From Nymphaea colorata (Eukaryota; Streptophyta; Magnoliopsida; Nymphaeales; Nymphaeaceae), in NCBI RefSeq assembly GCF_008831285.2, contig NC_045142.1:26487876-26551875 (forward strand): a DNA stretch of 64,000 bases, read 5' to 3'. The notes below the pieces were generated by a model. That model saw only the letters and a list, made by a program, of their open reading frames with translations, made no database searches and had not been told where the DNA came from. Made by a program: the position numbers and the translations under genes. How positions within the stretch are numbered: position 1 is the stretch's first letter; every line of letters starts with the position of its first letter. Positions 8,840 to 64,000 of this stretch are shown here, piece by piece.

Positions 8840-9922
8840 ACCTCTCTCTCTCTCTGTGTCTCTCTCTAGACACCGAAGTCTAATGGGTCGTTAGAGGAAG
8901 AATTTTGATTTCGTTAGGAGTCGTGGGAGCAAAAAGCGGAGGTGGGGTGAGAGAGTCGGAGTTCCTTAGATCCGATTTCTCTCTCCGTTGCGTGCGAGAA
9001 ATCCTACCCTTTGCTTCTTCAACCGTCAATCCCCCTCTTCTAACAGTAGAAAAAGCCATTCTTCCCTCTGCCCTCCTCCTGTCTTTCTGAAGGAAAGCAA
9101 TGCCCATTCCTTTTCCTTTTTTGTTCAGGTAAGCCCTTGATCTTTCACTAGGATATCTTGTTCTACTTCTGTTTGTGGACGACGCTTTGTTGGTGATTTC
9201 GTTTTTTTTTTTTTTTTTTTTCTGGGTATCCAATTTTTTGCATGGTGGTGGTTCTGCATTTCTATTGGGACATGATTTTGTATCTGATAAGCTTTGGGGA
9301 TCCTCTCTCTTGGGTTCTACTGTTGATATGCAGTATTAGTGAAAAGGATTGTGGCTTCCTGTTGTTTGTCTTTTATGATAGGATCTTCGTTTGCTTCGTC
9401 GTTCCCATGATCTGTTATCCATTTTTATCTGTTGAATGTCCTTGGGAGCTCATTCAATGAGTTCAAATGAAGCCACATGTCCTTCTCCCTATGTTCAAGT
9501 TATGAGGACTGTCTGGCTGGATAGAAATTCATGAAATAGTAGTTTGGTTGATCACGTTGTGGCTTATTATCCTATCCGGAAAAGTGGGACCGGGACGTGC
9601 TGGCCAATTGCCTTATGCTCCGCACACGAATACTGCGCAAGTTATCTCATTTCTTTGATAAATGGCAGTTCTAAAAGACACGATAAAGGCAAAACCAATC
9701 AAGTAAATGGAAACAAAGATCAGATAGTTTGAGTAAAGAAACCAAATGCTTCTCTTGAATTTTTCAAGTCTTTGGAGGGTCATCTACTATAAGAATATTT
9801 CTTTTACAATTGAATTTAGATTCGTTTATTAAAGATCAATATTTTCTGTCTCGCATCTGATAAGAAGTCATTCTCCTGCACTGTTCAAAATTTCGTAGGC
9901 CTTGAACGTGAGACCAGTTAGA
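8840..9922 (+). promoter_or_regulatory. 5'-UTR exon and leader intron of the DPD1-like gene, with a possible intron-split uORF
   Basis: A CT-rich leader begins near 8840. A good donor (TTCAG/GTAAGC) sits at 9128/9129 and an acceptor (TTTCGTAG) ends at 9898, giving a 770-bp intron in the 5' UTR. An ATG at 9100 in the leader exon reads across this junction to a TGA at 9903-9905: an 11-codon upstream frame that ends 17 bases before the main ATG at 9923. The junction is inferred from splice signals only; exon start and promoter elements are not resolved. Confidence 0.5.
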
Positions 9923-12900
9923 ATGATCCTTTCAGGATTGCTTGGTCCTTGCCATAGACTACAGATAATGCTGAAGAGGAATTTGTCGCCCGCAACAATG
10001 GGCTTTTGGTCAGAGAACTTCAACCAATTGAACAGTTTAAGCTTTAGTTTTCACCGATTTGGTACATCCAGGGCTACTGGAGAATTGCCAATTGTGGGTC
10101 ATCAGAGGCTGCCGTACGTTTCAGCAAAAGCTGAAAGGAATAGTCCAGAGGTGCAGAGAGACAAATGTTTCGACATTAAACTTGATCTTGTTAGTGGGAG
10201 AGCTCAGATTATTGAAAAGCCCTCTACCAAGACCGTACAACTACCTGGAGTAAAAGATTTTCTTAGTTCTGATGTGAAGAAAGACACTGCTGGTAGCAGA
10301 TATCTGGAGCGACTTGCAACAATTTTTGTCTTTGATATTGAAACTACTGGATTCGGCAGAGACTCACACAGGATCATTGAGTTTGCACTTAGAGATCTTC
10401 TTGGAGGCCCCAACAGTACATTTCAGACCCTTGTCAATCCTGAGAGATATGTTCCAAATACAAATATTCATGGTATCAGCAACTATATGGTTAGAAGACC
10501 TGGTGTTCCAAGGTATTGTTACTGTGTAATCTATCATTATTTTTTTATTTGTGCTTCTTCGTAATTTATTAGCTTCATTTGTTTTAAATTTTTAATTAAT
10601 TTGGCGGTCATACTGTTATCAATTACGAGAAGCTACAAAGGATTATCATCTTGATGCATGTAGAACATGCACTTTTCACTCTTCATGGTGCCTAAATGAT
10701 TGTTGAAAAGAAAATGAATATTTCCATAAGGGACACTTTCCTCTCTGCAGTTAAAGCTTTGAAATTATAGCATTCCTTGGTCCATGTACATAATGTGCAT
10801 GTTGCTGAAGAGTAAATTTTAACTAAAACACGTATGACATTCTGTCTGAAGTATTATTACATAGGAATGGCATTTTTCTGGTGATGCCTGCTTAGTTTAC
10901 TAAATTAAGGCAAAAAATGGCAATCAAAACCACTGTGTTGTATTTACGTGTAGATAGTAATCTGAATCAGTCAATCAAACCTTGGCTTCTCTAATTCCTT
11001 GCTGGTTCTGATGATAGCTGAGTGAACAAGAAAATTAGGAGGAATATTCACTTGACAAATATAAAAGCAATGGCATGCTATAAGGCTGACAATTATTTAT
11101 AGAAGTCCCTAACATATATCTGGTGCTTATTCATCCAAGTTTGTGCACTTCAGCATTTTAAAACATGAAGTTTCTCTTTAGAAGTGATATAGTACTGTTG
11201 AAGATGTAAAAGGTAAATTAGGTGCACCAAAAGGAAAAACAAAATGTGTTTGTGTGTGTGTGTGTGTGTGTCCTAAACTTGGCTTGCAAATATTGGCCAA
11301 AGAGAAGGTTTGCTACATCACTTTCAGAGTGTATGTATGTAAGGTGAAATTTTCAGGGTGCTCAACTATATATCTATATAAATAAATAAATAAATTCATT
11401 ATTATAAGAATTTGTTTTTACCAATTTTCCTATGTATATATATATATATCATCAGATTCAGGACCTTATAGGCTCCACAAGTGGGCACATCAGCACACCC
11501 ACGCATGGATTTGTTGACATGGTTGCATGGATGTAGATCCAAGGTTCTAACACTTGATTGTAGAATAGGCTTCGAATGAGAAGCTTCAATTTGTGTGCTA
11601 TTATCTGGAAGGGACGTACTAGTAGATCCATCAGTCAATAGATTTTCATAAGGAATACACCTTTTTTAAATAGCCATTTGGTGTGAAAGAATATTCTGCA
11701 ACATTATCTAAATATTTTGTTATTGTGAATTTTTCTGTTTCTTAGAAACTTACAGATTAATAGATGAAGAGATGGGTCAAATTGATTATATAATCTGAAT
11801 TAAAGTTTACACATAATATTTTACCTGCAGAACATTGTCAAAGCTTCTATTCTCACTCTCTTGATTTTAGTTTTTCTGTTTCACAAGTTTGTTGCTTACT
11901 TCAGGGTTCTGTGTTGCAGGTGGAAAGATCTAATTCCTATTTTAATCCAATATGTAAATTCACGACAGAAGCCGGGTAGGCCAGTCCTATGGATTGCGCA
12001 CAATGGTCGCCGTTTTGATGTCCCCTTTATGCTTAAAGAATTTGATCGCTGTTCAATAGAAATTCCTTCAGATTGGCTTTTCCTGGACACCCTTTACCTT
12101 GCTCGTGAATTGGTGAAACCTGATGGTCAGACATTGTCTTTTTCCATGCTCAGGCTGATTTTGATTTTTTTCATTCGTTTTTGTACTATAATCAATCTTC
12201 ACGATACTCTCCATTTCCATTTACCATCTTCATATATATTTAAGTTTCTTAACATCTTTGTCTGCTATATATTCTTCCATATATCATGTTTCTTGTCTGC
12301 TTGAGCAGGTATCTGCACAATTGTATGTATAACATACATCAACCTTGATTGCATGCTTATTGAATCCTAAAAATAAAAGAAATGCTCTCTCTCTCTCTCT
12401 CGGTGGTGCAAAGAGTCGATACCAATTGCTAATGCTGAAGACCGTACCATGGAATTGAGCAGATCAAGTTCTGTTGGCTGCACTAATGTGAAGATTCACC
12501 TAAGGACTGCCTCACGTTAGCCTGTTTGAAAAGGATCAGGAATGAAACTTTAAGTGATTTTTGTTTTTGGTTGAGGGTTAAACATAAGGAACTAGGTCAT
12601 GAAAAAAGTATATCTTTTTAGCAGTTTTGACTTCAAGATGCTTTAATCCATATTAAATGAAAATTGTCAAAGAAGAACAAGAGTAATAATAAATGAAAGG
12701 AAAAATTGCAGTAGTATCATTCATAATCGGTTAAGAGCAAAAGAGAGAAAGATTGAAAGAAAAACAAGTGCCAGCTAGGGAGCAAAGCTTTGTTGATTCA
12801 GGACAAAGAACTAACTCCATGAAGTTGTTGACATTGTGGAATGCTTATTCTTGCTTGCACTTAGAACACACTTGGATAGGAAATCTCCATGTGGAAATGA

Positions 12901-21430: not shown

Positions 21431-24400
21431 ATGGACGCCGATTCGTGGGCCGCTCGCTTCTCTGCATCCAAGCGCCACCAGGCCCTTCAATTCCGTTCCA
21501 GTAATCCTGATTATTCTCTCTCTCTCTGGTTCTCTTTCCGTGGGTTTTAGTTGTTCTTTCTTGTATGTCGTGTGATTTCGGGGTCTTTGGTCTGATTTTT
21601 CTGATTGTGGTTTCAATGGACGAATCAGGTGCGGATCTTCAGTTGAGTTTTGATGATTTCGAGACGGAAGAGGATCTTCGCGCGGAATTCCCGTGCCCGT
21701 TTTGTTCGGAGGATTTTGATATCGTAGGTCTCTGTTGTCATATAGATGATGAGCACTCGATCGAGGCTAAAAATGCGGTAGCTTTTCATCTCTCTGAGGA
21801 AACCTTCGGTTTTTGTCATTTTGGTAAATGATCGGTGGAATTTCTTTTCCCTTTATTGCTCGGATTGTCGTTCCTTTCCTTCTTTCTGTTGGGATCTCCT
21901 TGTAGTTCAAAACAATGATTATAATAAGTTGGAGACTGCATGTTGTCTCAATTTAAAGAATCTCTTGTTCGAATGGTGACTATGTGATCGTAGGTTGAGT
22001 TCCACTACGTGATCTGGTATCCGACTTGCTTTTCCTTCTTCTTTTTTTTCTCTTTTTCCTTTTTTGGTCAGTGAACTTTTATTGGGCCTTTTCTTGTTTG
22101 TGTCATCTACTGTTTCAGGAGACTGAAAGCAATGTCCTTGTATGTGGATTTTGCTTCTGACCTCTTATTTGTGGTCTGAGTAAATAGTTCATAGAATCTT
22201 AATTTCAGGATCATATCTTTTTTAGTGGACAACCTTCTGATGTTTAGTAACAATTGCATAAAATACTTCTTCTATTTCTCAAATAATTGTGCTGTCATCT
22301 TCAGGTGTGTATACTAGCTACCTTCCTGCCTAATCTGATCTTTTCTATTCCATTTTTCGCAGGTCTGCCCTGTTTGTGGAACTAGGGTAGGGATGGACAT
22401 GGTCGGGCATATCACTATGCAACACGGACATTTCTTTAAAATATCCTTCCTCCGTATGGATTGCATGCTTTTCTCATGTGCCTCCTTGCCTTTAAGAAAA
22501 TTTTTTGCTTCTACCTAAGTTCAAGTAATTGTTCTAGCATTGTGATGGCATGCCAATCTTTGAAGTTTGATAGGTTTTAAAACTGTTCGAATAGTCAACC
22601 ATTTCTCAAGTACTGTCATAGCTATTGTTCTAGTCGAGTGAGATGTGGAGTACTATACCGGTATCATTGATCTTATGTTAAACCACATTTCTTTCATGTA
22701 AATTTATGATTCTCGAGCCAGCCTCCATTTGGAAGCGATGCAAAAGAAGGCACCTGAACCAACTCATAAGTCATTCTCTGTGGAGTATATTGAGGTCGTC
22801 TTTCCAAGATTAAGCGAATTTCACCAATCGAGGAAAGATACTTGGTCAGTGTGACCTGTTCGGAAGTTATCTTTGAGATGTAAGATGATGATTCTATTCT
22901 GGGCGATGCTGCACCATGCATGTGTGGAAGATGGTGTTAAAATATTCCAGTCATCTTGTCAGCATGGCTAAAGTACTCTGTTAGTCTGTTTGGCTTTCCA
23001 GTTTGTACAGAGTATAGCGTCTTGAGAAGTCTGATAGTGTGTCAGTGCAGAACAATTGAAGTCATTAAAAGGTGTCCACTTGTCATTTTCCTGCAAACTT
23101 TTTCCCTTTTTAATGTTTTCACTTAAATTTCACTTATATATTGCTTAAACTGAGTATTTTTTTTCTCCAATGTTCTAAAGACTTCCTAAAAGGTTGTTGT
23201 TACTTTTTTCAAAAAGTTATATGATTTGAAAGCATGCTATCTTCTTGTGTTCCTTGATTGAAGTTCAAATGCAGCGCAGAAGGAGATTTCGGAAAGGATC
23301 ATCTCATTCTACAATTTCTATGTTGAGCAAAGAACTGCGGGAAGGACACCTTCAGTCCCTCCTTGCATCTTCATCTTATCCTGTTGCTTCATCCAATACA
23401 GCTCCCGACCCATTGTTATCATCATTCATTTACAGCATGCCCATGGTTGACGCTCCAGCTAAACCAGAGTTGAATTCACCAGTTGAGACAGTTTCTGATA
23501 AAAAGCCGTTAGATGATAAAGTGAGAGAAAGGTATGTCTGGTTGCCTGTTACTAAGTTACCAACAGAGTTCCATGGGCATTTTGTTTGGATACTTTATTT
23601 AGACAATTCATAACATGAACCAGTAAATTCTATAATTTTTTTTTTCAATTTCGTTGTAAGCCTGCCTCTCACCATTTTTTCCAGAAAAAAAAAATTGTTA
23701 TACAGCAAGGGTCGATGATGACTAAAGAGGAGAAGGATTAGAGTCCTCTAGGGGCTACTGTAAAAGGAAAAAGAAGTTAACAAACCTCTATATCAGCATT
23801 CTCCTTAAGAAACACAAAAATAAAGTAAGATTTTAAACCCCACCACTGAGAGAGCTTTTGCTGTCACTCTGAACCTCTTTCAGCCAATGCAACCATCTTT
23901 GATGGTTCAAGATATAGCTATCTTCTGCCATGAAGAATGTGCTTCAGCCTGGTTAGTATGTGTATCCTGCTTCAAGAAAGAGCTCTTAGATGAGAAAATC
24001 TCAACTCCGGCCTCTTGGCTGTTCTGAATATCCAAGATCCTGCCTAATAAGCCAGAGCTAGGAAGGGTGCCTAAAGAATTCCATCTGGCATGCTCCTGCT
24101 TTCTCTTTTTTCACTTAGTTTATTTATTTCAATGGTATTGGAACTCGTCTATTTCTTAATCTAAATAACTGACCCTGGGGCCTGGACCAGGTTGGATTAA
24201 TTCACCTATTTGTGAGTTACTTGGCTGCCAAATAAAACTCTTGAGCCATTGGCTAATAAGGGAGTGATTGGTTGCTTTTCAAACTTAACCCCACTATGAA
24301 CTGTGTTTAGTTGAACTATTTTTCAGCAAGTTAACTGATGATCAGAAATTGTTCTGGATTGGACTGTTACCTAAATGCGAAGCACCTAAAAGATCTAGCC

Positions 24401-24718
24401 AATGCAGGAAAGTTTAAACACAAATCCTGGTATCACATGTGGTCCTTACGTGGAGCCCAGTGCAAACAGGCAGTTTCTAGTATGCATTATGCACACATTT
24501 GAGTAACCTACTTTCATTGACAGCATGTCCTGACATAGGGTCCATTGGGGCTAGACATGCCTGACCCTATATTAGGGCCCATTGAAAGATTAAATTCATC
24601 CAGATTTCCTTCAGGCTTTCTGGCAACAGAGTGAACCTATGTGCAGGACCTCCTCGAAGAACCTTTACCCATTCAGTAGGCATTCCATATACATGTCCAT
24701 ATCAAGTTTGGGTAGGTA

Positions 24719-24749
<31 letters not shown>

Positions 24750-25894
24750 CAATTTCATTTACTGTCCTTTTCAAAGTCTAAATGCCACCTCTGCAGGCTT
24801 CTTGATGCCTAGCATAATTTATAAGGATATTTTGTTATTTACCGGTGCCACATGTTTTCTTTTAGTTGAAATAGTATAATCTAAGACGACTGTTTAATAG
24901 AAGTGCTTTTTTGTACTTCAAATTCAAGACCAGCTTGATTTGCGAAGGTGGAACTCTTAGCAACTGTATTCCAATAACAATGGTGATTAAGGGCCTAATT
25001 AGGTGCTCTTTTGTTAGCCTACAGCTTGAGGCCAGTCATTTCAAGGGTATATAGGTCAGGTTAATGGTTCCTTGTGAGTCTAAATCTGAGATCCGTCTTT
25101 ATCTCCAAGTTTAGGTGTTCGGTGGAAATTGTTTTAGTGGAGAACCTTCAACATCCAATCTGTGAACTATTGTTTACTACAGCAAGGAACCATCCTGCCA
25201 TTCTTGGTGAAGCTAAAAGGTTGCAAGAAATTGGTTATAAACTTATAATTGTTCAATTTCTTACCATTTGTGTGCTGTTTTTCTGTCTTTTCTCTTGCTT
25301 GAGTGTTTGTTTAGGCCACATTCATCTGACTTAGTAAGTGTTGATTGTAAGAACATTTTTGCAATTTGGATCTATTATTGGCATGTTTGTCATCCTCACT
25401 TGTTTTGGTAGGCCAGAAGTAGTAGGTGAGATATGCCGAGGATTAGGATTTTATGAATTTCAGCCAAATTTGAGAACCTTTGCTTTTGATTATGGTGTTA
25501 ACTCTAAAATGCAAATGGCAATGCCTAGCCATATATTGAAATGGGAAGCACATGTGCATGCTTGCAAGGTGCTCACTTTTCAAGTCCCAGCCACTTTTCT
25601 GATGTTTCAGATGGAGCAGCCATTTATGTGTCTAGTTCTTTTCTGCTTGTAGTATCATACTGGTAGCTTTTTCTGTCTCCGTTAAGATTGATAAACCCTT
25701 CATGTATTTGAGTGAATGAGTTGAACTTTTTGGAAATTTATTGTGTTCATGTCACTATGTTGGTCTGACTTTGCAAAATCCGTGGTTCCAGTACTGAACC
25801 GCCTGTGTCAGATAAGGACCAGGAGGAGAGGGCTCGTCGATGCAGCTTCGTCCAAGAGCTTTTGCTGTCGACCATTTTCAAGGACACGTTGTGA
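21431..25894 (+). CDS. DI19: Drought-induced 19 (Di19) family zinc-finger protein
   Basis: Exons 21431-21500, 21629-21777, 22363-22440, 23269-23531 and 25792-25894 give a 220-aa protein. The N-terminus MDADSWAARFS is family-typical. Two C2H2-like Di19 fingers follow: C46, C49, H61, H66 (CPFCSEDFDIVGLCCH) and C75, C78, H89, H94. A basic cluster (MQRRRRFRKG, about 100-109) is a likely nuclear localisation signal. The Di19 C-terminal domain contains ELREGHLQSLL and ends ARRCSFVQELLLSTIF. Family members are nuclear transcription factors in drought, salt and ABA responses; Arabidopsis members are phosphorylated by calcium-dependent kinases. Intron 3 has U12-type signals and sets the boundary after K99: keeping Met-Gln needs an AA acceptor, while an AG acceptor six bases further would give 218 aa. 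Intron 4 is about 2.3 kb. Family assignment is near certain; the exon 4 start is less so. Confidence 0.92.
22441..23268 (+). other. U12-type (minor spliceosome) intron in the Di19 gene
   Basis: No GT donor fits the end of exon 3. The intron begins ATATCCTTC, one base from the U12 AT-type donor consensus ATATCCTTT. Near its end, TTCCTTGAT (23250-23258) matches the U12 branch-site consensus TTCCTTRAY exactly. The 3' end is AA at 23267-23268 if the conserved Met-Gln is kept (branch to splice site 11 nt), or AG at 23273-23274 (17 nt). Both keep the frame. No AC lies at a suitable distance. Confidence 0.85.
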
Positions 25895-43651: not shown

Positions 43652-43703
<52 letters not shown>

Positions 43704-46700
43704 ACAAGAAGAAACTGAGGAGAAGAAGCCGTACCCAAAATGGTTTGCACGGCCTCTATTTATAATCTCATTTTCAGAATTCTAAGAGTCTTCAATCGTA
43801 GAATCCTAGGAGATTTCACAAACTCCAAGGACATTAATTACATCATAGAAACCTAAGAGACTTCACATATTACAAGGATATTAACTACAACATAGAATCC
43901 TAGGAGACTTCCCATATAACAAGGATATTAACTATAACATAGAATCCTAGGAGACTCTTCACATGTTACAAGGACATTAAATATTTTAACACATTCTACA
44001 AGGAGGTGGAATCCTAAGAGACTCCTCTTCAACGTGCTGGTGAAGGATTTATATTTTAACACCCTCCCTCAAGTTGTGCATGGTTTTGCACCATGTACAA
44101 CTTGCCTTTTAGAAACCAGAATCGTTCCTTTGTTAATCCTTTTGTAAATAAGTCTGCAACTTGTTCATCTGTACGAACATAAATAGGCTGAATTTCCTTG
44201 TCTTCCACCTTTTGTCTAACAAAGTGTTGATCAATCTCAATGTGCTTTGTTCGACCATGTTGTACGGGATTAAAGGCAATGTTAATAGCGCTTTGATTAT
44301 CGCACATTAACATTGATGTTTTAATCTTTTCTCCAATGTCTTCTAGCAAATGTCTAACCCATGTAACTTCAGCAGTACCTGCAGCCATGCATCTGTATTC
44401 AGCTTCAGTGCTGGATCTTGCTACTGCCTTTTGCTTTCGACAACTCCAAGACACAAGATTACGTCCAATGAAAATACAAAAACCAGAAATGGACTTTCTT
44501 TGATCGGGATCTCCAGCCCAATCTGCATCTGTGAATGTCATAAGTTGATGTCCAGTAGTTATATTTTCACTCTTACCATAAACTAAGCCATCTCCTGCTG
44601 TCCCTTTAAGATATCTTAATATTCTTTTGACAGCATCCATGTGAGTATCTCTAGGTGCATGCATAAATTGGGATACTTGATTCACAGCATATATAATATC
44701 TGGTCTAGTAAATGTAAGATATTGAAGTGCCCCAACAATACTTCGATATTGCGTAGGATCTTCATATAACTCCCCATCTTGAGCACTTAGTCTTTGATTT
44801 AGAACACTAGGAGTTCCAACAGGCTTACAATCAGACATACCTGACTTTTTCAACAAATCCAACGTGTATTTCTGTTGTGTCAATGTGAGGCGATTATTGT
44901 GCCTATCAATCTCCACTCCAAGAAAGAATCGTAAATCACCAAGCTCTTTCATTTTGAAGTTTTGCATCATCAAAACTTTAGCTTCTTCTATGTGTTTTTC
45001 TGAATTGCCTGTGATAACAATATCATCAACATATATAAGAAGTAAAGTAAATATGTTTTCCTTTCGATAAATGAAAAGAGAGTGATCTAGAGGACATCTC
45101 CGAAAACCACATTCTTGAACCTTGCAAGAGAAACTGTCAAACCACGAACGTGAGGCCTGTTTAAGTCCATAAATAGATTTTCTTAGTTTGCAAACCCATG
45201 CATGAGAGTCTCCTTTCGTGTATCCTGGAGGTTGTTCCATATATACTTCCTCCCTTAAATCACCATGAAGAAAAGCATTCTTCACGTCCATTTGATGTAG
45301 TCTCCATCCATATTCAACTGCCAATGATATAATCACGCGAATTGTTCCCATTTTGATCACAGGGCTGAATGTCTCATCATAATCTTCTCCATATTGTTGT
45401 GTAAACCCTTTTGCTACTAACCTTGCTTTGTGTCTTTCTATGCTGCCGTCAGGTTTGTATTTAATTTTGTATACCCATTTGGAGCCCACTACGTTCTTTT
45501 CGTGTGGCCTCGGAACGATCTCCCATGTTCCACATTCATGCAAGGCATCCATTTCTTCTTTCATAGCCTTTCTCCAATGATGTGATTTTGATGCTTCATC
45601 AAATGAAGTAGGTTCTTCCTCCTTGCCAACTTTTGCCATGAATAACTGAAAATCAAGTGATAAAGAATCATAGCTAACCCACCTGTGAATGGGATGACGA
45701 ATGCGTTGGGATCTTCTAAGGTGGGGCATGTTGTCTTCTTCACTGTGAGCATCTCTGTCCCTTAGTCGTCGACTGTAGATAAGACCTGAATACCGATGTG
45801 CATCGTTGCTCTGTTCATTATTGTTTTCGTGATGACTTAATGACTGTGTTGGATCTTCTTGATTTTCACTTTGAGCCATATCCGACGGTTGTATTGCTCT
45901 CTCTGAATCTTCACTTTGAGGCACATCATTTTCTATAACAGGATCTGCATTGAATAACTGTGTACTGGTCCAGGGATCATAAGATTCAATGGTCATAGGC
46001 ATTTCATTTGTATTATCAAAACTATGTTCATCAAAAATGACATTTCTTGAAGTTTTGATACGTTTAGTTGTTGGATCATAGCATCGAAAACCTTTATATT
46101 CATCAGCATATCCAACGAATCTACATTGAATAGCTTTGTCTTGAAACTTGTTCCTCAAGGCAGCATCAACGTGAACATAGCATACACAACCAAAAACCTT
46201 CAAGTTCTTGTAATCAGGTTGTTTGCCTAAGAGTGTAAAATATGGCGATTTAGACATCAAGAGTGTCATAGGCAAACAATTTATTATGTATACAGCAGTA
46301 TGGAAGGCTTCAGTCCACAAGGAAATGGGCACATTAGTATCATGCATCATGCTCATGGCGCTTTCAACTATATGTCGATGTTTCCGCTCAACTACACCAT
46401 TTTGTTGTGGTGTGTAAGGGCAGGAAATTTGTCTAGTTATCCCTTTTTCACGTAGAAATTCAATAAAATCAAGCGAGGAATATTCTCCCCCTCCATCACA
46501 TTGAAAATGCACCACATTGGATGAAAATTTAGTTTGAATCATGGCATAGAAGTTTCGAAATATGTGAGGTACTTCTGATTTGTGTTTCATGAAGTAAATC
46601 CAGGTGAAACGTGAGTAAGAGTCAATGAATAAAACATAATATCTTGACCCAGACATGGAATCAATAGGGGCTGGCCCCCATACATCAGAAAAAATAGTTT

Positions 46701-48644
46701 CAAAAGGTTTGGAAGCCCTTTGATTTATATTATGGAAAGGTAAAACATGACTCTTACAAAGTCCACAACTTGAACATTTTTTGACACTTGAAGTAAGAGG
46801 TAAACTTGATCTTGGAATGAGACTATCTGTGACAAGTTTTTCAATGAAATGTCGACCACAGTGTCCTAGCCGACTATGCCACAAATCAGACTCCAAAAAT
46901 TGGTTAGGGCCCCTTACTTTTGATTGAAAATGGCAAGAACTTGGCACTGATGACGCATTATGAGAAAGAGAAAATGTCTTCAATCCTATATCAAAAGTGG
47001 ATGAATCCTTAGGTAGACATTCCTTGAGGACGTACATATTCCCTTGACGCTCCCCTCTAGCGAACATTTTCTTCGTTTGGAGGTCCTTGACATAGACAGA
47101 AGAAGGTGTGAATTCAACAGAAGAGCTTGTATCATCAATGAGTTTAGAAATGGATATGATGTTCTTTTTGATATTGGGAGCAAGAACAACATTAGACAGT
47201 GATAGAGACGAGGATGACAATGGAATATGTGCATTTCCAATATGTGTAATAGGATGAGATTTTCCATCACCTGTTATAATGCAACTTCTACCGTAATGAG
47301 GGGATAAGTTAGTCAATTTACCTGCATTTCCTGTCACATGGGTAGCTGCACCTGAATCCAAGAACCATTCTCCCTGCTCATTTTGCTTTATAGTCATCTT
47401 TGAGAATGCGGCCATCAATAGCTGTTGCATATCTTCAGCGGTGGATTTAGAACTTTGTCCTCCTTGTTTATAATCATGTCTTACCCCTTTGTTTTTATTT
47501 TGAGGATTAAACCAACATTGTGCCTTCATGTGTCCTTTCTTGTTGCACTGAAAACAAATTGGTATTTTTCTTGAAGTATCCAAAGGAGACATACCTTGGT
47601 TATGTGGTGTTGGTAGAATGCCACGACCACCATGGTTGGAGTTCCCATGGCTCTTACCAAACTTTACATTCATAGCCAACACATTTTGGGAGTTCCCTTG
47701 ATCAGTCCTTTCAATGACTCTTTTCATATTCATTTCATGTTGGAGAAGTTTACCTTGTAGTTCGTTGAAGGAAGGCAGAACAGGAAGGACCTCAAGAGCT
47801 GTAATAAAAGCATGATAATCATGCCCAAGTCCATTCAAGGTTTGCTGCACCTTTTCCTTATCAGAAATGTTATTCCCTGAGGCAGCAAGTTGGTCTGCGA
47901 CGGCCTTAATACGCCCCAAATAATCCATGATAGACGTTGAACCTTTGCTCAAATTCTGAAATTCTTTCTTTAAGTACATAATTCGAGCTTCTGATATTTG
48001 GGAAAAGGTATCAGCAAGGGTTTCCCATAATTCTTCTGCAGTACAATCATCAGAAACTGAAAGTAACACTTGTTGAGATAAAGTGGACAAAATATACGCA
48101 ACCAGACTTTGATCACGTCTCATCCACATAGCATGTTCAGGATTGTTGTCTTCATGAACAGCAATAACTTCTCCTGCCTCATTTTTTATTTCCTGTAAGA
48201 CGGATATTGGTGGAGCCTTTGTTGAACCATCGAGATGTCCAAAGAGGCCTTGACTTCTTATGAAAGGCATGATTTGCCTTTTCCAGATCAGATAATTCTC
48301 ATGGTTGAGTTTTTCGGTAATAAGGTGAGGAAGAAAACTTGAGGACATGCCAGAATGCGAAAGGTTTTCCATGACAGCAGAAAGGAATGGTATATAGGTA
48401 GAAGATGAGAGGGAAAGAAGACACGATATAACAAGATGTGTCCTTGGTAAGCAAGAAGAAAAAGGAACAAGAATTGCGCAAGAGAAAAGTAAATTCAGGA
48501 TAGAGACAAGATGAGAAAAGAGTTCTAACCAGATCAGACCTGTTTGGGCATTTCGTTTGGTAGAGATAACGTAACCTGGCGCTCTGATACCATGATAGAA
48601 ATGTAGCACCAATATCTGTAACCCGAAAACAGCACTCACGCAGG

Positions 48645-48724
<80 letters not shown>

Positions 48725-49717
48725 ACAAGAAGAAACTGAGGAGAAGAAGCCGTAGCCAAAATGGTTTGCACGGCCTCTATTTATAATCTCATTTTCAGAA
48801 TTCTAAGAGTCTTCAATCGTAGAATCCTAGGAGATTTCACAAACTCCAAGGACATTAATTACATCATAGAAACCTAAGAGACTTCACATATTACAAGGAT
48901 ATTAACTACAACATAGAATCCTAGGAGACTTCCCATATAACAAGGATATTAACTATAACATAGAATCCTAGGAGACTCTTCACATGTTACAAGGACATTA
49001 AATATTTTAACACATTCTACAAGGAGGTGGAATCCTAAGAGACTCCTCTTCAACGTGCTGGTGAAGGATTTATATTTTAACAATCATTACCGCCAGTTCA
49101 ACTGAGACAGTAACTGCTGAATGTTCAGAGCTTTCAGTTTATTTCTTCAGTTTTATGTGGCATGCCATCAGCCAGTTCCATTTTCAAACCATGATATGAT
49201 CTTCTAATTGACAAAGTTGTGATTCCAAAAATAACATTCTTTGGAGTCTCACCGTTTCCCAATTTGTCATTTATTTTGAAATTAAATTGATGTTATGTTT
49301 TTTTTTATTAAATTGATAATATATTTCATTTTTTGATTTGTTATTATTGCAGACCCCTCGAATGCACAGATGATAGTGCAGTCTGGAGGGATCCCCCTGA
49401 TTATACAATGTCTATCAAGTCCAGTGAAAAACACAGTATATCTTTTAAACTCCAATATTCAAGGTTGAAGTTGAGTTCTTTTGTGAAGTGGAGAACACAT
49501 GCCCAGTAATGTACCTGGAACAAATGTTTTGTTTTATTTTCAGGTTAATTATGCTCTTGCTGCTCTGTATTATCTATGCGATCCAGGTACTAAAACAGAG
49601 ATTTTGAAGCCTGAAGTTATTGAACTAATCAGACGATATTCGAAGGCAGAGGCAGTGAATGTTACTTTCAGCAACCTCGCGAAAGCATTTTTGGAGAGAC
49701 ATGTTGACGGATCGTAG
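42342..49717 (+). CDS. ARMC7: Armadillo repeat-containing protein 7 homologue
   Basis: Exons 42342-42413, 43031-43067, 43201-43274, 43368-43461, 49353-49435 and 49544-49717 join in phase to 177 aa. The protein begins MFTNDARQLGRTGKYGTPRE. Its helical repeats include HLANFAYDPYNYDFLR, ELFLDCITEPNEKLIEFGVG and GGIPLIIQCLSSPVKNT, and it ends in FLERHVDGS. Length and motifs fit ARMC7 (about 180-200 aa in animals), a small Arm-repeat protein. In animals and maize ARMC7 partners RBM48, and the pair acts in splicing of U12-type introns, at U6atac snRNA. All splice sites are GT-AG. The fourth intron is 5,891 bp because a 5,483-bp copia element plus its 5-bp duplication is inserted; without it the intron would be about 403 bp. 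The exons on either side are intact and in phase, so the gene appears usable if the long intron is spliced. Confidence 0.9.
43600..44061 (-). repeat. 3' LTR of the young copia element, 462 bp
   Basis: On the plus strand it runs from TGATAGAAATG to TTTTAACA. It contains a GA repeat of about 40 bp (43657-43696) and several degenerate repeats of about 45 bp built on CATAGAATCCTAGGAGACTT (43785-44010). Confidence 0.95.
44056..48372 (-). CDS. Copia gag-pol polyprotein, intact
   Basis: Starting at the ATG at 48372, the frame is 1,438 aa and ends in a TAA lying in the first bases of the 3' LTR. Domains in order: copia gag; CCHC zinc knuckle (273-286); aspartic protease DSG (339-341); pre-integrase LWHSRLGH (about 495); integrase with D563, D626, E662 in D-x62-D-x35-E spacing; reverse transcriptase with YVDD (1114-1117); RNase H with TDADWAGD and SSTEAEY; C-terminal LFTKGL. 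The proteins package, cut, copy and integrate the element's RNA in virus-like particles. Every catalytic motif is present and there is no frameshift. The frame is also open upstream into the 5' LTR (to 48771), but MENLSHSG at 48372 is the gag-like start. The second integrase site reads CDGGGEY, where many relatives have DNGGEF-like words; the catalytic D is kept. Confidence 0.95.
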   Translation of the reverse strand: MENLSHSGMSSSFLPHLITEKLNHENYLIWKRQIMPFIRSQGLFGHLDGSTKAPPISVLQEIKNEAGEVIAVHEDNNPEHAMWMRRDQSLVAYILSTLSQQVLLSVSDDCTAEELWETLADTFSQISEARIMYLKKEFQNLSKGSTSIMDYLGRIKAVADQLAASGNNISDKEKVQQTLNGLGHDYHAFITALEVLPVLPSFNELQGKLLQHEMNMKRVIERTDQGNSQNVLAMNVKFGKSHGNSNHGGRGILPTPHNQGMSPLDTSRKIPICFQCNKKGHMKAQCWFNPQNKNKGVRHDYKQGGQSSKSTAEDMQQLLMAAFSKMTIKQNEQGEWFLDSGAATHVTGNAGKLTNLSPHYGRSCIITGDGKSHPITHIGNAHIPLSSSSLSLSNVVLAPNIKKNIISISKLIDDTSSSVEFTPSSVYVKDLQTKKMFARGERQGNMYVLKECLPKDSSTFDIGLKTFSLSHNASSVPSSCHFQSKVRGPNQFLESDLWHSRLGHCGRHFIEKLVTDSLIPRSSLPLTSSVKKCSSCGLCKSHVLPFHNINQRASKPFETIFSDVWGPAPIDSMSGSRYYVLFIDSYSRFTWIYFMKHKSEVPHIFRNFYAMIQTKFSSNVVHFQCDGGGEYSSLDFIEFLREKGITRQISCPYTPQQNGVVERKHRHIVESAMSMMHDTNVPISLWTEAFHTAVYIINCLPMTLLMSKSPYFTLLGKQPDYKNLKVFGCVCYVHVDAALRNKFQDKAIQCRFVGYADEYKGFRCYDPTTKRIKTSRNVIFDEHSFDNTNEMPMTIESYDPWTSTQLFNADPVIENDVPQSEDSERAIQPSDMAQSENQEDPTQSLSHHENNNEQSNDAHRYSGLIYSRRLRDRDAHSEEDNMPHLRRSQRIRHPIHRWVSYDSLSLDFQLFMAKVGKEEEPTSFDEASKSHHWRKAMKEEMDALHECGTWEIVPRPHEKNVVGSKWVYKIKYKPDGSIERHKARLVAKGFTQQYGEDYDETFSPVIKMGTIRVIISLAVEYGWRLHQMDVKNAFLHGDLREEVYMEQPPGYTKGDSHAWVCKLRKSIYGLKQASRSWFDSFSCKVQECGFRRCPLDHSLFIYRKENIFTLLLIYVDDIVITGNSEKHIEEAKVLMMQNFKMKELGDLRFFLGVEIDRHNNRLTLTQQKYTLDLLKKSGMSDCKPVGTPSVLNQRLSAQDGELYEDPTQYRSIVGALQYLTFTRPDIIYAVNQVSQFMHAPRDTHMDAVKRILRYLKGTAGDGLVYGKSENITTGHQLMTFTDADWAGDPDQRKSISGFCIFIGRNLVSWSCRKQKAVARSSTEAEYRCMAAGTAEVTWVRHLLEDIGEKIKTSMLMCDNQSAINIAFNPVQHGRTKHIEIDQHFVRQKVEDKEIQPIYVRTDEQVADLFTKGLTKERFWFLKGKLYMVQNHAQLEGGC
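48593..49082 (-). repeat. 5' LTR of the young copia element, 490 bp
   Basis: Same sequence as the 3' LTR except for one substitution and a GA tract longer by 28 bp (48651-48718), which accounts exactly for the length difference. On the minus strand TATAAATAG (48785-48777) is a good TATA box, so transcripts would begin with a CT-rich leader. Confidence 0.95.
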
Positions 49718-56200: not shown

Positions 56201-59200
56201 TCAAAGTGGGAAAATTGACACATCCCCTTTGATTTTGAATCAGGACTTCCTTTCTCTGAAAGTTGAAAAAACGGTTATCTACTTCCGAATTCTTCTCCCA
56301 TACAGAGGAAAAATTAATAAAAATCCCATAATGGCAATCACTTGAATTTAGGTCCTCCTAAGAAAGGTTCACCCTAAAACAAGTGAAGTGAATTGTGGCA
56401 TATTGTAAAAGTCAATATGCCACAATTCATGACAACCTAACAGATCAGGCAAATAAAATTCTTACATGGTAAGCAAAGAAGTAAACTAACAATACATAGA
56501 ATAAGTTTCAACATTTGATCTAAGAAGAGAATTCATAATAATTTGTCCATCTTAAAATCTTGCATTTGAAGCACTTGGAATAACAAAAAGTGTCTGTCGT
56601 TCAACATCACTTCACACCTATGTGACATAAGTACTGGTACGGACCATTTTCAAAAAACTTGAGTACGGAGGCACGTCCACATATATTTTATAATTATAGA
56701 TATGTATATTACTGTATTAAATAAATATAAATATATATATATAACAAAAATAAGAATTCAAACAATAAAAAAGCCACATGCATGATTCAAATTGTATAGA
56801 TTATGTAGAAGAAACTAATGAATAAAGTATAAAAGTAACAACCATACTAAAAATAAATAGAAAAAACAAAGAAAACCCTATTTTTTTGGACAGAAATGGA
56901 GTTAGTCAATGTTGACAGATCAAAAAAAAAGAAAGGATGAATACCATCATCCTTGGTATGTTGACCATACACAGGACATACCCATGGGCATCCCTATACC
57001 AATATCCGTACCCGTATGGTATGGGTGCTGCTCCATAAAAGCAGTATCCATGTGACGAAGCAGGAGTTCAAGAAAATGGCAATATGTTTGCATTGAAGAC
57101 AGGCAATTGACATATACAATTTCATACTCTGAGAGTACATGCTTCAGAAACATGCTAATATGTGGCAACTAAGACAAAAAGAAACATATCACACATTAGT
57201 CATGATAGTAAAACCAATACATCCACAAAAGAAAAGACCAGCTTAACAGAGAAGTACATACCTATATAGCCTTCTTTGACCAAAGCTTTTAGATGAGGTT
57301 TAACCAATGCACAAACTTGTTCTTTTGCATCATGCACCTGCGAACTGTCTGCATCATCATTCAGCACAATCCTAGGTTGTTCCTCCAGATCTTGCATTTC
57401 TTCGTACCACACTGCTCGTGGATGAGCTACTTTAGGCTCACAAGTGGAGATATTTTCATCAGAAAGATTATTAGAAGTGTAACTATTTGGGCATTGAACA
57501 GTAGTTCTCAATCCGCTCACGCTTGGAGACAAGTAACTTATGTGTTGCAGATGCTGAGACGAACTTTCTCCAAAGCTATCTATTACAGTGGAACTCGCAT
57601 ACCTGCCACTCTCATTAAAAAGGTAACCATCAGATCTATCACATTTTGATCTCCCAAGCTGCTCTTTCACTCCAAGATCCTGCTCCTCAGGTCTGATTGC
57701 ACTACTATTATAATTTCTATTTAATAATCTATTACTTACTTCAATGAAATTAGGCATCTCACTCATTCTATTACTAGTAAGCATTGAGTGTATCTGGCGC
57801 CGTAACCTGCGTCTGCCCATGACAGTAGAGGCACCTGCTCCTAAAGTAGGCGAAGTAGTTGCAGAATCCCCACAGACAGGAAACCTAGGAGCTGCATCAT
57901 TTATGTGGCAGGAAGGTTGGCTAACTGAAGTCCTTAAACATTGAGAACTAGGGCCAAAAAGTGAGGGAACATCAATATGAATGGCATTTTCAGGATATGA
58001 AATGCAATCAACAAACTGCTCTTGTACAGAACTGCGCAGTGGCCGCAAATTGGAAGATTCTGGATCAGAAGCTTTACAACCTTCACAGTACCAATTGCCT
58101 TCAGGAACTACCATCCCAAGACCAACACAATAAGTGTGAGCAGAGGAATCACAGATATCACAAAGCAGCATGAGGTTATCATCACCACCTTGGTGGCACT
58201 CCATACAAACTATATTGGCATAGGGATCAAGGTAACTCCTCAGCTCTTCTTCAGAAGGTTGGTAAACCTGTAAAAGTCCAAAAGAGAAAAAAATGAAAAG
58301 AAACAAATTGTCTTCAAAAGTAGCACAGGTAAATACAAAAAAAAGAAAAAAAACAAACAAACAATTCAGCTCATTCAATTAATTTCAACTAAATTGACCA
58401 GGAAATACTACAAAGAAAAGACGCTTCGTTGCAGTGCTTCTTGTTCTTGTATCTTGTTATTTAACAATATTGACAAAGAAATACAGATTGATGAAATGTC
58501 ATTCTTTTGAGACTAGAAATTTTATTGGTTTGGTTTCTTAACAGAGTAATCCAGAAAAACCAAGGGTGTGACTAGTGACACCTTCGCTGACAGTCGAAAT
58601 TGGGTTTGTGAAAACCCAGTTTTAACAAAATGCTGTTTTCAAAAGAGAATCCCACACGTAGACCAGGTTTTTGCCTTGTTGGCCAGTTTTAAAAACTGGT
58701 TAAAAAAGCAGGCTGTCACAAAACCTGGTTTCCACAATACATTGTTGAGGAGGGATTGAGTACAATGTCACCAATGTATTCCTCCTAAATAGCAAACATA
58801 TTTTACATATCATAATGGTAGTACTTGACAACATTCAATAATGGGAAAATCTTAGTATGTGACAGCCTCGATAAGGGCAAAATCAGAACATTATTTTGAC
58901 TGGTTCCTACTACAGTAACAGCAATATCCCAATGCCATTAGAATCTATGTAGGACATTACTAACATCCATCAGACTAGTTGCCTTTTATCATTGCCGACT
59001 ATTGCTATTGCTTAACCATCACAAATTCATTTTCCTTTTTGATATTTGCACTTCAAGAATGCTTAACCTGTGTCCAGTACAAACTATCCTCTCTTTTAGA
59101 TGATGATAACCACAGTTTGAAAAGGTTTAAAAGGTATGTTCAGACAAGTAGCATCTAGATTGTAAGGCTTGGAAATCAACTTGTTTGCCCTTTGTTACCT

Positions 59201-62200
59201 ACACCTAGTTCCTTGAAAAGAACGGTTAGAACATGTGCAGTGATCAAGGATATGTACAGCATAGAATTTGCAGCTCTCTGCTTTCACACAACTTCCTCTT
59301 AGGCATTCATATTCTCTGTCTTGACACAACATTGTCTTTAGCTTTTATGTTAGACACAATTGAAAACATGAAAATAGCAATTAAATCATGTTAAAGATGA
59401 TATACGGGCTAGATTCTTCTTTGTAATGTCAGATCAGTGCAAATCAATCAGGCCTCAATTTAAGACCAGCTAATAGCCAACTCTGTGATTCGTGCAAGCC
59501 ACTCAGCAACTTAGATAGGTCATAGTCTTCTAGTTCCTTAAGTAAATGACAAATTTATAGTCGTTAATGCAAAATTTCAAAATTAAGATGTACATATTTA
59601 TTACATCAAATATATTTTTTAATATACAAAATAGAATATGTGCTTTGCTGTAAACCTAACATAAGCACAAGTTACATTAATAATACAAATCAATAAAGGA
59701 GAAAAATGCTGAAGAAGTACACGGCTGAAACGACTCAGTGGAGTCAATAATAAAACTCATTCAACTTCGTTAAACATGATTGATCCAGCTGAGTCAAAAT
59801 AATGAAATATCAAGACATCAACAAAACAAAACAGCACAACTCTAGAACATAGAGATGACCAGAAATAATTTATGTTTTATAGCTCTAGCACTTCTTAAGC
59901 TTTTTTCTCTTTTTATATATACATAAATTGCCTGTATTGCACCATGTCAAGGTTGCAAATTTCTGGAATTTAAGTTATATGAGACTGTTGTTCCTCCACA
60001 TATTTTTACATCTGAAGGAGAACAACTGTTGTGTTTAATAAAAACAGAGTACTTGTGAAGGAAACAAAGACAAATTTAACGTGGTTCGGCCTTGAATGAC
60101 CTACGTCCACGAGAACTCTCTCACTCTCTAACTTTCTTCAATATCATCGTTAGAGAGTGGTTCCATTAAATAACTTGTCAATGAGAGTTACATTTAGGAT
60201 CCACATTTGGTGGATCTGTTACAGATGATAATGGTAAAGGATCTTGTCCTTTACTTTTGTTCTTATCTCTTTCTTTTCTTAGCTGATCATGTGTATCATC
60301 AAGTTTATCGCATGATCTTCCTTCCATGATTTCCGATAATTCTTGCCTTTTATATTTATCATTGTTAAGTAAGGAGATGATAGAAATAAGGGAACAGAGA
60401 TTGACTTCAGGAATTGAGAGAACAGGTTTAACAAAATTTTCTATTTTGAAATAACAAAAAATGGTGGTACGGAAAGAAGTACGAACAACATGATTATAAT
60501 TGAAGAGTGATCATTTGAGGTTCCACCGTCAGAATGGACTGCTCTCTAGTGAAAAAGTAAAGGAACCTTCATTCAGGCCCGTCCACATGGATGGGGTACC
60601 ATAAATGCTATGTGTGAAAAGATCCCTGAGAAAGCAAATAAGGGGAAGCATATGGTTTGGAAGCAGAACTTATGCCTACATGATAAAATTGACCAGCAAA
60701 GATACGTAAGCTTGTGAGGTCGTGCAAGTGATTCTCCGGTTAGTCAGAGTCATGTTCCTGATCAGTGATAAGCTGAAAAACTCACTTCTCAAATTCAGCG
60801 TCCTTTACAACGTAGCGATGGCACCTACATAGCTGCATCGGTACATGTTTAGGAGAAAGAGAGTATGAGAGGATGTGGTTTAAAAGCGCATGTTTAAGTG
60901 TTTAATCTGACCAAAATTTTACGATGTTTAGCAAAGTCATCTAAGGCAGCTCAAGCATGTCGCACAAAGACTGGAAAACATACAAGTAGGAAACTATGAA
61001 GCCCAGCAACTTGAAGATACTAGAAGCGGATGAAGCACAAATGTACAAGACCAAAAGAAGCATCAATAGCGTAATGATTGAAACCTACTGAAAACAAGCC
61101 AAAAAAAGGCAACTACCTGATTCCTGCATGGAACATTTATCGTTACATTCCTTAGGCAAATCCCCGAGTTTGATAATTTGTCAATAGTCTCGAACCGCTG
61201 TTTGCACATCGGACACCTTGATTCGACCTTTGACCATTCCATTATACAAATGAAGCAGAAAAAATGATCGCAACAATTTAGCTTGCCACGAACAGTGCCC
61301 TTCCGTTCTTCCGATAGACAAATCCCACATACTTGCTTACAAAAATCTGTAAGCTTCTCTTTGCCTTTACACCCAATTCTGTCCGCCTCAACAACGAACT
61401 TCACAATCCTTCCATTTTGTTCTCGCGGACCCGAATCGCCCATAACCTGATCCCCTTTTAGACCAGGGGAGCGTCTCGAGCGCGTCGCTAAAATCACATC
61501 CGGTACCTCCATCGGAATATCAGTTTCTTCATCTGACACAACGAAATCCGCATCTGACAAAGAATCTAAATCGGACGGAGTTTCTGCCATCTTTCTCTGG
61601 CTCGATCTCTTCTTCTTGGCCTTAGGGCTTGACCTTATCCTCTTCCTGCTAGTATTCTCTTCTTCATCCTCAAAATCATCGTCGTACTCGTACTCGTCCT
61701 CCTCCTCCTCCTCTTCCTCCTCCTCCTCCTCCTCCTCCTCCTCCTCTTCTTCCGACGAAGCAACTCTCCTACTACGTCGCTTCCTCGTCCTCTCGACGGC
61801 AGATTTCCGGACCTTCTTGACGGAACCTATCGTTCTTCTACCTTTCCTTCTCCTTACTCCTGCCACCTTCCTTTTAACAGAATTCCTCGCAACAACCAAC
61901 TCCTCCTCTTCCTCCTCATCCCCGGTGCTATTCTCCGATCCAGGATAGAAATCTTCGTCCTCCTCCTCTTCATCGCACGAAACTCTGCTTCTCCTTCTCG
62001 CTTTCTTGATTCTGCGGCCTGACAATTTTCTTCCAGGTTTTTTCTGTTTGATTTTTCGGGTTCTCGCACCTGAACCATCCGAATCTTCCGAACCGCTGAA
62101 ATCACGATCTTCCTCCTCATTCTCCGCCTCCTCCTCGCCGTCATCGCCAGCATCGCTGCAGTCTTCACAATCATCTTCATCGTAATCCTCGTCCTCCTCG

Positions 62201-62310
62201 TCATCTTCCTCCTCCTCCTCGTCCACGACGAAATCCTCATCGGAATCGTCGGAGCTCTCGCCCCTCCGCCTTTTCCTCCCTCCTTTAAGCGAATTCTTCC
62301 CCCGACTCAT
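53265..62310 (-). CDS. Acidic nuclear RING finger and PHD finger protein
   Basis: Exons 62310-61117, 58267-57262 and 53500-53265 join in phase to 811 aa. Residues 1-270 alternate acidic runs and basic patches and include a 19-residue Glu tract, typical of chromatin-associated proteins. A C3HC4 RING (about 328-371: CGIC, CDHFFCFIC, CPMC) suggests ubiquitin E3 ligase activity. A PHD finger follows at the start of exon 2 with all eight zinc ligands (C419, C422, C434, C437, H442, C445, C459, C462); PHD fingers bind histone H3 tails. A long Ser/Asn-rich linker leads to a conserved C-terminus (ATHTILAA-like motif here STHTILAAYGIK, then PPNCDH and CFNEFVRNVV). The layout resembles plant RING/PHD proteins such as Arabidopsis At3g05670, from memory. 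Introns are about 2.8 and 3.8 kb. The start is the ATG before SRGKNS. Confidence 0.88.
54773..55223. repeat. 215-bp tandem duplication in the last RING-PHD intron
   Basis: CAAGTTGAAGAAGGTTAAGG begins copies at 54773 and 54988. The two copies stay highly similar, with an insertion in the second (extra AACCTTATTAAC-like bases and a doubled TATTAACTAT). Confidence 0.88.
55945..55976. repeat. (GC)/(GT)n microsatellite
   Basis: GCGCGC passes into about 13 GT units, inside the last RING-PHD intron. Confidence 0.9.
60040..60240. mobile_element. Possible retroelement fragment in RING-PHD intron 1
   Basis: AACGTGGTTCGGCC followed by TGACCTACGTCCACG is a pair of words I associate with repeated LTR-derived sequence across many plant genomes. 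No ends or target duplication were found. The assignment rests on memory of that motif. Confidence 0.35.
61697..61751 (-). repeat. Glu-coding trinucleotide tract
   Basis: A CTC/CTT run on the plus strand reads as GAG/GAA on the coding strand and encodes the long Glu tract of the RING-PHD protein. The repeat is impure (a few CTT among CTC), which suggests it has been stable for some time. Confidence 0.9.
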
Positions 62311-64000
62311 CCCCAGCCCAAGAGATCTCCCCCCACGATCAGATACCTGAAGAAGGACAAGATCCCAACCCTATTTGGAAGCAATTCCACAGCGCAAGGT
62401 CGAGGGAGAGAGATAAAGAGAGAGGGAGAAGGCGGGTGAGCAATCCACGAATCTGCCAGTAAGAACGAAAAGAATTTGTAGCTCCTGTACCTTCGCAATT
62501 ACCATAATGTCCTCATCCTTTCATTACCTTACGGGGCGAGGCAGCCGTTAATAAGTTTGAATGGCCGCCTTTTCCAAAATGTGGGTCGGATGAGATCCAA
62601 AAAGTGTTGATCCGTACCCGACCGTAATACTGCGAGGTATATTTAAAATGGCAGAAATAATAGGAAAGAAAAAGTAAAATGGAAAAAATCCATTTTTGGT
62701 GGCTACAAAGAAAAGAAAATTCACGCGACATGTTATAGTGAAAATTTATCTTATTTTTTATCTTTTAATATAACAAAAAATAGGAAAAAAAAAAGTCAAA
62801 GATTGAGATTGACATTGAGAGGGTCTATCATCTAAATAATTAGCACCTACGAATTTTTATGATACATTTATTTATAATTCGTAAATAATAAATCTGACGA
62901 TCTTTAGTTTTGGGCGTCAAAAAACAAAAACAAGAAAAAAAAAATCTTTTTTAAAGTTTCGAATTAGATGAGGTGATTTCCGGGTCTGGATACACAGCTA
63001 TCCAACACGGATCCCATGCGTCAACGACATGACGAAGGGCATAGTTGCAATATCTTTGACATCCGTCGGCTTTCATGTAAGAGGCGAGGGAACGAGGCGT
63101 GCTGACGCAGCGAAGCACCAGGGTCTTGCCTGAGCCTTACGCGTGGGACCTCGTCCCGAGCCACTCGGCTGTGTTTGACCGGTTCGGCGAGTTGACTTGA
63201 CCCAAACCGAGTCCGAGCGACCGCCCGCGGAAAACAGGAAGACGGCCGCAACCTTCCTGTCAAAGGGTCGGGTCGCCCGCCGTAAGACCGAACCGGGATT
63301 CTTGCTGACTGATACTTGGATCGGGTCTGGATCCCTAAAAATTCCTGCACGTGGGTCTGGATCTTGAAATAGCAAGCTCGTGCTGTTGTTATCAGCCCTT
63401 AAATTGCATAATCAATGGTGTTTCTATAAGTTCTCAGCCTTAATACAAGATTATCTGGCATTCGGATCAGAATTTATTGGGCACAGATCCCTCCAACTCA
63501 GCTCATTTTGATTTCGGTAACTCCGGGTCTGGATTCCTGCCTGAAATTAGTAACCCCCACGTGAATATCTCATGTTATGGTGGTGCCCTATTTGCATCCT
63601 AATCCAAACTCGAGCCACTATTTGCATCCTAATCCAAACTCGAGCACATTCCAAGTCCAAATCCAATTGCTAACCGACCCGTAAAGATGTATCAACGTGG
63701 TGCCCGTAGCGGATGACTGCACTCGCAAAGTGTGTGTCCATAACCGATTCCGATTCGGATATAATCCATTTCTTCTTCTTCTTCTTCTTTTTTCGGCAAT
63801 CAATTTGTCCGAACTAGTGAAATGAAGATTGGATCTCCCCTTGAATGAATTATATCCGAATCGGGGATGGCATTATCAGTTCCAGGTATGAATATTTTAT
63901 CGATTCAGATTCTCAATCATCCGGTATATGATCAATTACCTACGTTTTGTTTTAGGTATATTACGAAATAAATAGCTCAATCGTGATCGTCATGTCAAAT
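62311..64000. other. Upstream region of the RING-PHD gene and intergenic DNA
   Basis: A GA-rich leader (about 62395-62440 on the plus strand) precedes the RING-PHD start on the minus strand. Beyond it the sequence turns AT-rich, then a GC-richer patch (63060-63300) holds words such as GGGTCGGGTCG and GGGTCTGGATC, which recur elsewhere in the window and look like repeat debris. TTCTTC tracts lie near 63772-63790. No gene is recognised. Confidence 0.5.

Follow-up and report, generated by a model that had tools for sequence, protein, structure and literature searches.

A probable U12-type intron with AT-AA ends in a Di19 gene of Nymphaea colorata

The splicing of minor-class introns depends on U11, U12, U4atac and U6atac: the donor is recognised by U11 and then by U6atac, while the branch site is bound through base pairing with U12. 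Minor introns with the ends AT-AC, AT-AA, AT-AG and AT-AT have been grouped as A-type, and human cells splice them in a CENATAC-sensitive manner (PMC8280824). In plants, non-canonical ends occur in about 4% of the conserved minor introns, and almost 75% of these non-canonical introns are AT-AA (PMC10639083). Elsewhere, the share of U12-type introns with ends classified as 'other' was given as 1.1% for Arabidopsis, 1.2% for maize and 3.8% for rice, with none in soybean (PMC7367187). For U12-type introns, the optimum distance from the branch site to the 3' end is 11-13 nt and AT-AG ends are disfavoured; the choice of the 3' splice site has been called error-prone, and alternative splicing is nearly absent owing to rigid distance constraints (PMC3584512).

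Di19, a drought-response gene of plants, appears among the U12-intron genes that need U11/U12-31K for splicing (PMC3422263), and the splicing of Di19-2 was defective in Arabidopsis u11-48k plants (PMC4892727). In a later paper, Di19-2 splicing showed no significant change in 31k lines (PMC5853960); published results for the splicing of Di19-2 are mixed. The available text of PMC3591102 mentions At-Di19-5 solely in connection with NMD-coupled alternative splicing. Both Di19 and KCMF1 are absent from the available text of a paper on U12 intron positions in human and Arabidopsis (PMC2426677), and AT-AG is absent from that of a paper on U2AF1 and ZRSR2 (PMC10853781). The combination of Di19 locus numbers with 'U12-type intron' gave no literature match. 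Printed Di19 peptides near the junction led to no relevant paper, the sole match being on metabolic modelling and unrelated by its title. An AT-AA intron in Di19 was not named among the literature matches listed, and a record may well exist, for example in supplements. Both the U12 intron type and the AT-AA ending are already known in plants, and the Di19 intron described here is a good new example of them, not a surprise.

The analysed DNA (hereafter the window) is a stretch of 64,000 nucleotides from Nymphaea colorata. It contains an open Di19 gene of the plant type on the forward strand (21431-25894), which runs from ATG to TGA and whose five joined exons encode 220 amino acids (Table 1). 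Two Pfam domains, zf-Di19 (E 4.3e-25) and Di19_C (E 1.6e-19), matched exons 1-4 with scores that exceed the curated cut-off, and the C-terminal of the protein reads SFVQELLLSTIFKDTL. With five exons and four introns the gene matches the usual layout of the family: across seven species, 31 of 36 Di19 genes had four introns (PMC8954995), and the six Di19 genes of common bean all consist of five exons (PMC11169598). Introns 1, 2 and 4 have GT-AG ends. A pseudogene was considered and rejected, as the reading frame is open across all five exons.

Table 1. Positions of the Di19 exons, of intron 3 with its splicing signals, and of the competing GT-AG intron. Positions are those of the window.
Feature	Positions	Strand	Remarks
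Exon 1	21431-21500	+	joined exons read open
Exon 2	21629-21777	+	joined exons read open
Exon 3	22363-22440	+	ends ...HGHFFK, phase 0
Intron 3, U12-type AT-AA (favoured)	22441-23268	+	828 nt; motifs, spacing, frame, protein match
U12 donor ATATCCTTC	22441-22449	+	exact match to RTATCCTT
Rival GT-AG intron	22454-23263	+	in frame, zinc finger kept, adds ISFLLQ before MQ; not favoured
U12 branch site TTCCTTGAT	23250-23258	+	branch A 23257; exact TTCCTTRAY
ATGCAG	23269-23274	+	Met-Gln codons opening exon 4 (AA used) or end of the intron (AG used, 834 nt)
Exon 4	23269-23531	+	starts MQRRRRFRK...
Exon 5	25792-25891	+	stop codon 25892-25894

Searches for Di19-like sequence outside plants gave 5 stretches that fit a pattern in viral contigs and 37 in prokaryote genomes, none of which was confirmed in either set, which fits a gene of plant origin. 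The protein is weakly similar to the E3 ligase KCMF1 (E 7e-06); a published proposal makes Di19 the plant equivalent of KCMF1 within the UBR4/BIG complex, which would extend its function beyond that of a transcription factor (PMC7618180). An Rfam search at the gathering threshold and a tRNA search of the whole window gave no matches. Other open frames were observed in the window as well. On the forward strand, the frame at 9899-10564 carries an RNase_T exonuclease domain (E 2.5e-06), and a fragment at 2279-2818 with a GAG-pre-integrase domain (E 3.7e-10) is probably the remnant of a retrotransposon. On the reverse strand, the matches for the pair of open frames at 57200-58378 and 61063-62370 were a PHD finger (E 4.2e-08) and, only slightly above the curated cut-off, a RING finger (E 2.9e-06).

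The original prediction described the donor and branch site of intron 3 as near-perfect signals for the minor spliceosome, and both proved to be exact matches to the consensus. To estimate the probability of such matches, we resampled the gene with a first-order Markov model. The donor motif RTATCCTT arose in exact form at a single given position with a probability of about 5e-5, and the exact branch motif with one of about 5.5e-4 across the 12 allowed placements; if the two are assumed to be independent, their product gives a joint chance of about 3e-8. A chance origin of the U12 signals was rejected on this joint value. The donor octamer ATATCCTT by itself is not rare, with two occurrences on the forward and nine on the reverse strand of the whole window. 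The exact branch motif TTCCTTRAY occurs once on the forward strand of the window, at the branch site of intron 3, and twice on the reverse strand. The donors of introns 1, 2 and 4 deviate from the U12 consensus by 3, 2 and 3 mismatches, respectively, and their branch sites by 3 mismatches each in the best case. U12-type introns characteristically lack a distinct polypyrimidine tract; the pyrimidine fraction before the 3' end did not set intron 3 (0.60) apart from introns 1, 2 and 4 (0.45, 0.85 and 0.60). Intron 3 is in phase 0, which averages about 22% of the minor introns, a bias against this phase (PMC10639083), and it thereby belongs to the phase minority, which counts against the minor-class reading.

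Four of the nine reverse-strand occurrences of the donor octamer lie in the direct repeats of a likely recent LTR retrotransposon (43653-48973, reverse strand), whose two 300-nt repeats (43653-43952 and 48674-48973) are 99% identical and which encloses an open frame of 1574 amino acids (44056-48780) that by eye has the look of a copia-type gag-pol. Another occurrence of ATATCCTT is at 34125, and an exact branch-like site TTCCTTAAC is at 34439 on the same strand. These two do not form one intron, because their order is reversed, with the branch-like site upstream of the donor-like one.

Intron 3 shares the donor and branch consensus with canonical AT-AC U12 introns. Unlike these, it has no AC within the 35 nt after the branch A, so that the usual terminus is missing near the branch, just as had been predicted. 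Other possible 3' dinucleotides in the same 35 nt are AA (5, 11, 12 and 24 nt past the branch A), AG (6, 17, 22, 25 and 28 nt) and AT (13 and 30 nt). The relevant ends are the AA at 23268, 11 nt past the branch A, and the AG at 23274, 17 nt past it. A cut after 23268 yields FFK/MQRRRR in phase 0, and a cut after 23274 yields FFK/RRRR, also in frame. The sequences around the two splice sites (AAA/ATAT and CAA/ATG) have two letters in common on each side, which results in five cut positions with an identical mRNA, and RNA reads by themselves would therefore be unable to tell the five apart. We assigned AT-AA because only with these ends does the intron begin at the consensus U12 donor.

The junction was also compared with a related protein, PDB entry 9qt9_C ('Protein DEHYDRATION-INDUCED 19'). 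Its listing gives no organism; presumably it is the Arabidopsis protein, given that a cryo-EM study describes Arabidopsis UBR4 (BIG) with AtDI19 (PMC7618180). The protein produced by the AT-AA intron aligned with 9qt9 across the junction without a gap (GSLFKLQRKRKSRK vs GHFFKMQRRRRFRK), and the residues LQ of 9qt9 occupy the position of MQ (FKLQRKRK vs FFK/MQRRRR). The alignment scored 201.8 bits for the AT-AA protein, 192.1 bits for the AT-AG protein, with a two-residue gap, and 190.5 bits for the best protein from a GT-AG intron, with a six-residue insertion; this is a comparison with one relative, and the differences are comparable to a gap penalty. Hence, the comparison favours the AT-AA junction and offers good support for it, not proof. 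Motifs, spacing, reading frame and protein match are direct observations on this intron. Judged from its sequence, intron 3 is most likely an A-type intron of the minor class, dependent on U12 and removed with AT-AA ends.

The original prediction had also denied that any GT donor fits the reading frame, which is incorrect. Pairing the GT donors between 22363 and the read-through stop with the AG ends between 23228 and 23319 gave 12 in-frame GT-AG pairs, and three of these (22454/23263, 22454/23296 and 22478/23263) keep the zinc finger whole. The other nine, with donors upstream of 22440, lose parts of the second zinc finger and were rejected. According to the most plausible pair, 22454/23263, a U2-type intron would have superseded an old U12 intron and placed ISFLLQ between FFK and MQ. 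Introns are known to convert from U12 to U2 type by way of a cryptic site close by or a slight shift (PMC3584512, among others), and this intron is in frame and leaves the zinc finger intact. On a matrix that is an approximate plant consensus, its donor scores -2.2, somewhat under introns 1 (-1.2) and 2 (-0.3), with intron 4 at 6.4; however, 36% of the 3148 GT dinucleotides on the forward strand score equally high. The six inserted residues are missing from 9qt9, the AG at 23263 is only 6 nt past the exact U12 branch site, and a disused U12 donor and branch site would be unlikely to remain exact. We set this intron aside because of the inserted residues and the exact U12 signals, and not because of its donor; it appears highly improbable.

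The remaining alternatives retain the U12-type intron and concern its 3' end, for which AA or AG had been predicted. The U12 type and the AA end are supported by the 11 nt spacing and the gap-free junction, and the AG end is less favoured. If the AA were skipped and the in-frame AG used, the result would be an AT-AG intron (22441-23274) and a protein without Met-Gln. This would keep the reading frame, AG is a frequent 3' end, and AT-AG is among the listed A-type endings (PMC8280824). Yet its AG lies beyond the optimum of 11-13 nt past the branch A, AT-AG ends are disfavoured (PMC3584512), and the resulting protein has the two-residue gap against 9qt9, which makes exclusive use of this AG very unlikely. 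Measurable use of both the AA and the AG, giving two proteins that differ by Met-Gln before the basic cluster, overlaps with the AT-AA explanation, since the AA may remain the main form. The two acceptors lie six bases from each other and both preserve the frame, and an error-prone choice of the 3' end would be compatible with their joint use. Against this stand the near absence of alternative splicing in U12-type introns, with their rigid distances (PMC3584512), and the fact that CAG is the Gln codon, so that its presence is explained without a role in splicing. We regard joint use as rather unlikely. The AG at 23274 is a possible acceptor, as yet unsupported, and AT-AA is most likely the main form of intron 3.

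For the AT-AA intron, removal could proceed as follows. U11 and then U6atac would recognise the donor ATATCCTT, and U12 would pair with the branch site TTCCTTGAT. The second step would take the 3' end by distance, about 11 nt past the branch A, where AA stands; the AA would be used because no AC follows the branch site. The product would join FFK to MQRRRRFRK in phase 0, matching the junction of another Di19 protein. We infer from these features that intron 3 is actually removed by the minor spliceosome and that its AA end is used.

Among the described systems, intron 3 resembles the intron of Arabidopsis Di19-2, which is a published U12-intron gene of the same family (PMC4892727, PMC3422263, PMC5853960). 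Judged by gene family, the two are likely to be the same intron. Intron 3 also has the same ends as the AT-AA minor introns of plants (PMC10639083), in the available text of which Di19 is not named. The original prediction called AT-AA a rare class; it is indeed rare, yet it is the commonest non-canonical ending of minor introns in plants (PMC10639083). The CENATAC-dependent A-type (AT-AN) introns form a class that covers both AT-AA and AT-AG, as described from human data (PMC8280824). A more far-reaching reading combines two propositions: that the AT-AA intron is old and shared in the multi-copy Di19 family, and would explain much of the excess of AT-AA in plants, and that the downstream AG serves as a second acceptor, giving an isoform that lacks the residue pair preceding the basic cluster. 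This combination seems distinctly unlikely.

Intron 3 is a clean case, because the AC is absent and a U12 intron at this site must end in AA or AG. It would therefore be a handy substrate for asking whether the 3' end in minor-spliceosome splicing is set by the distance from the branch site or by the dinucleotide. Gene finders that expect only GT-AG or AT-AC introns will probably misplace exon 4 of this Di19 gene.
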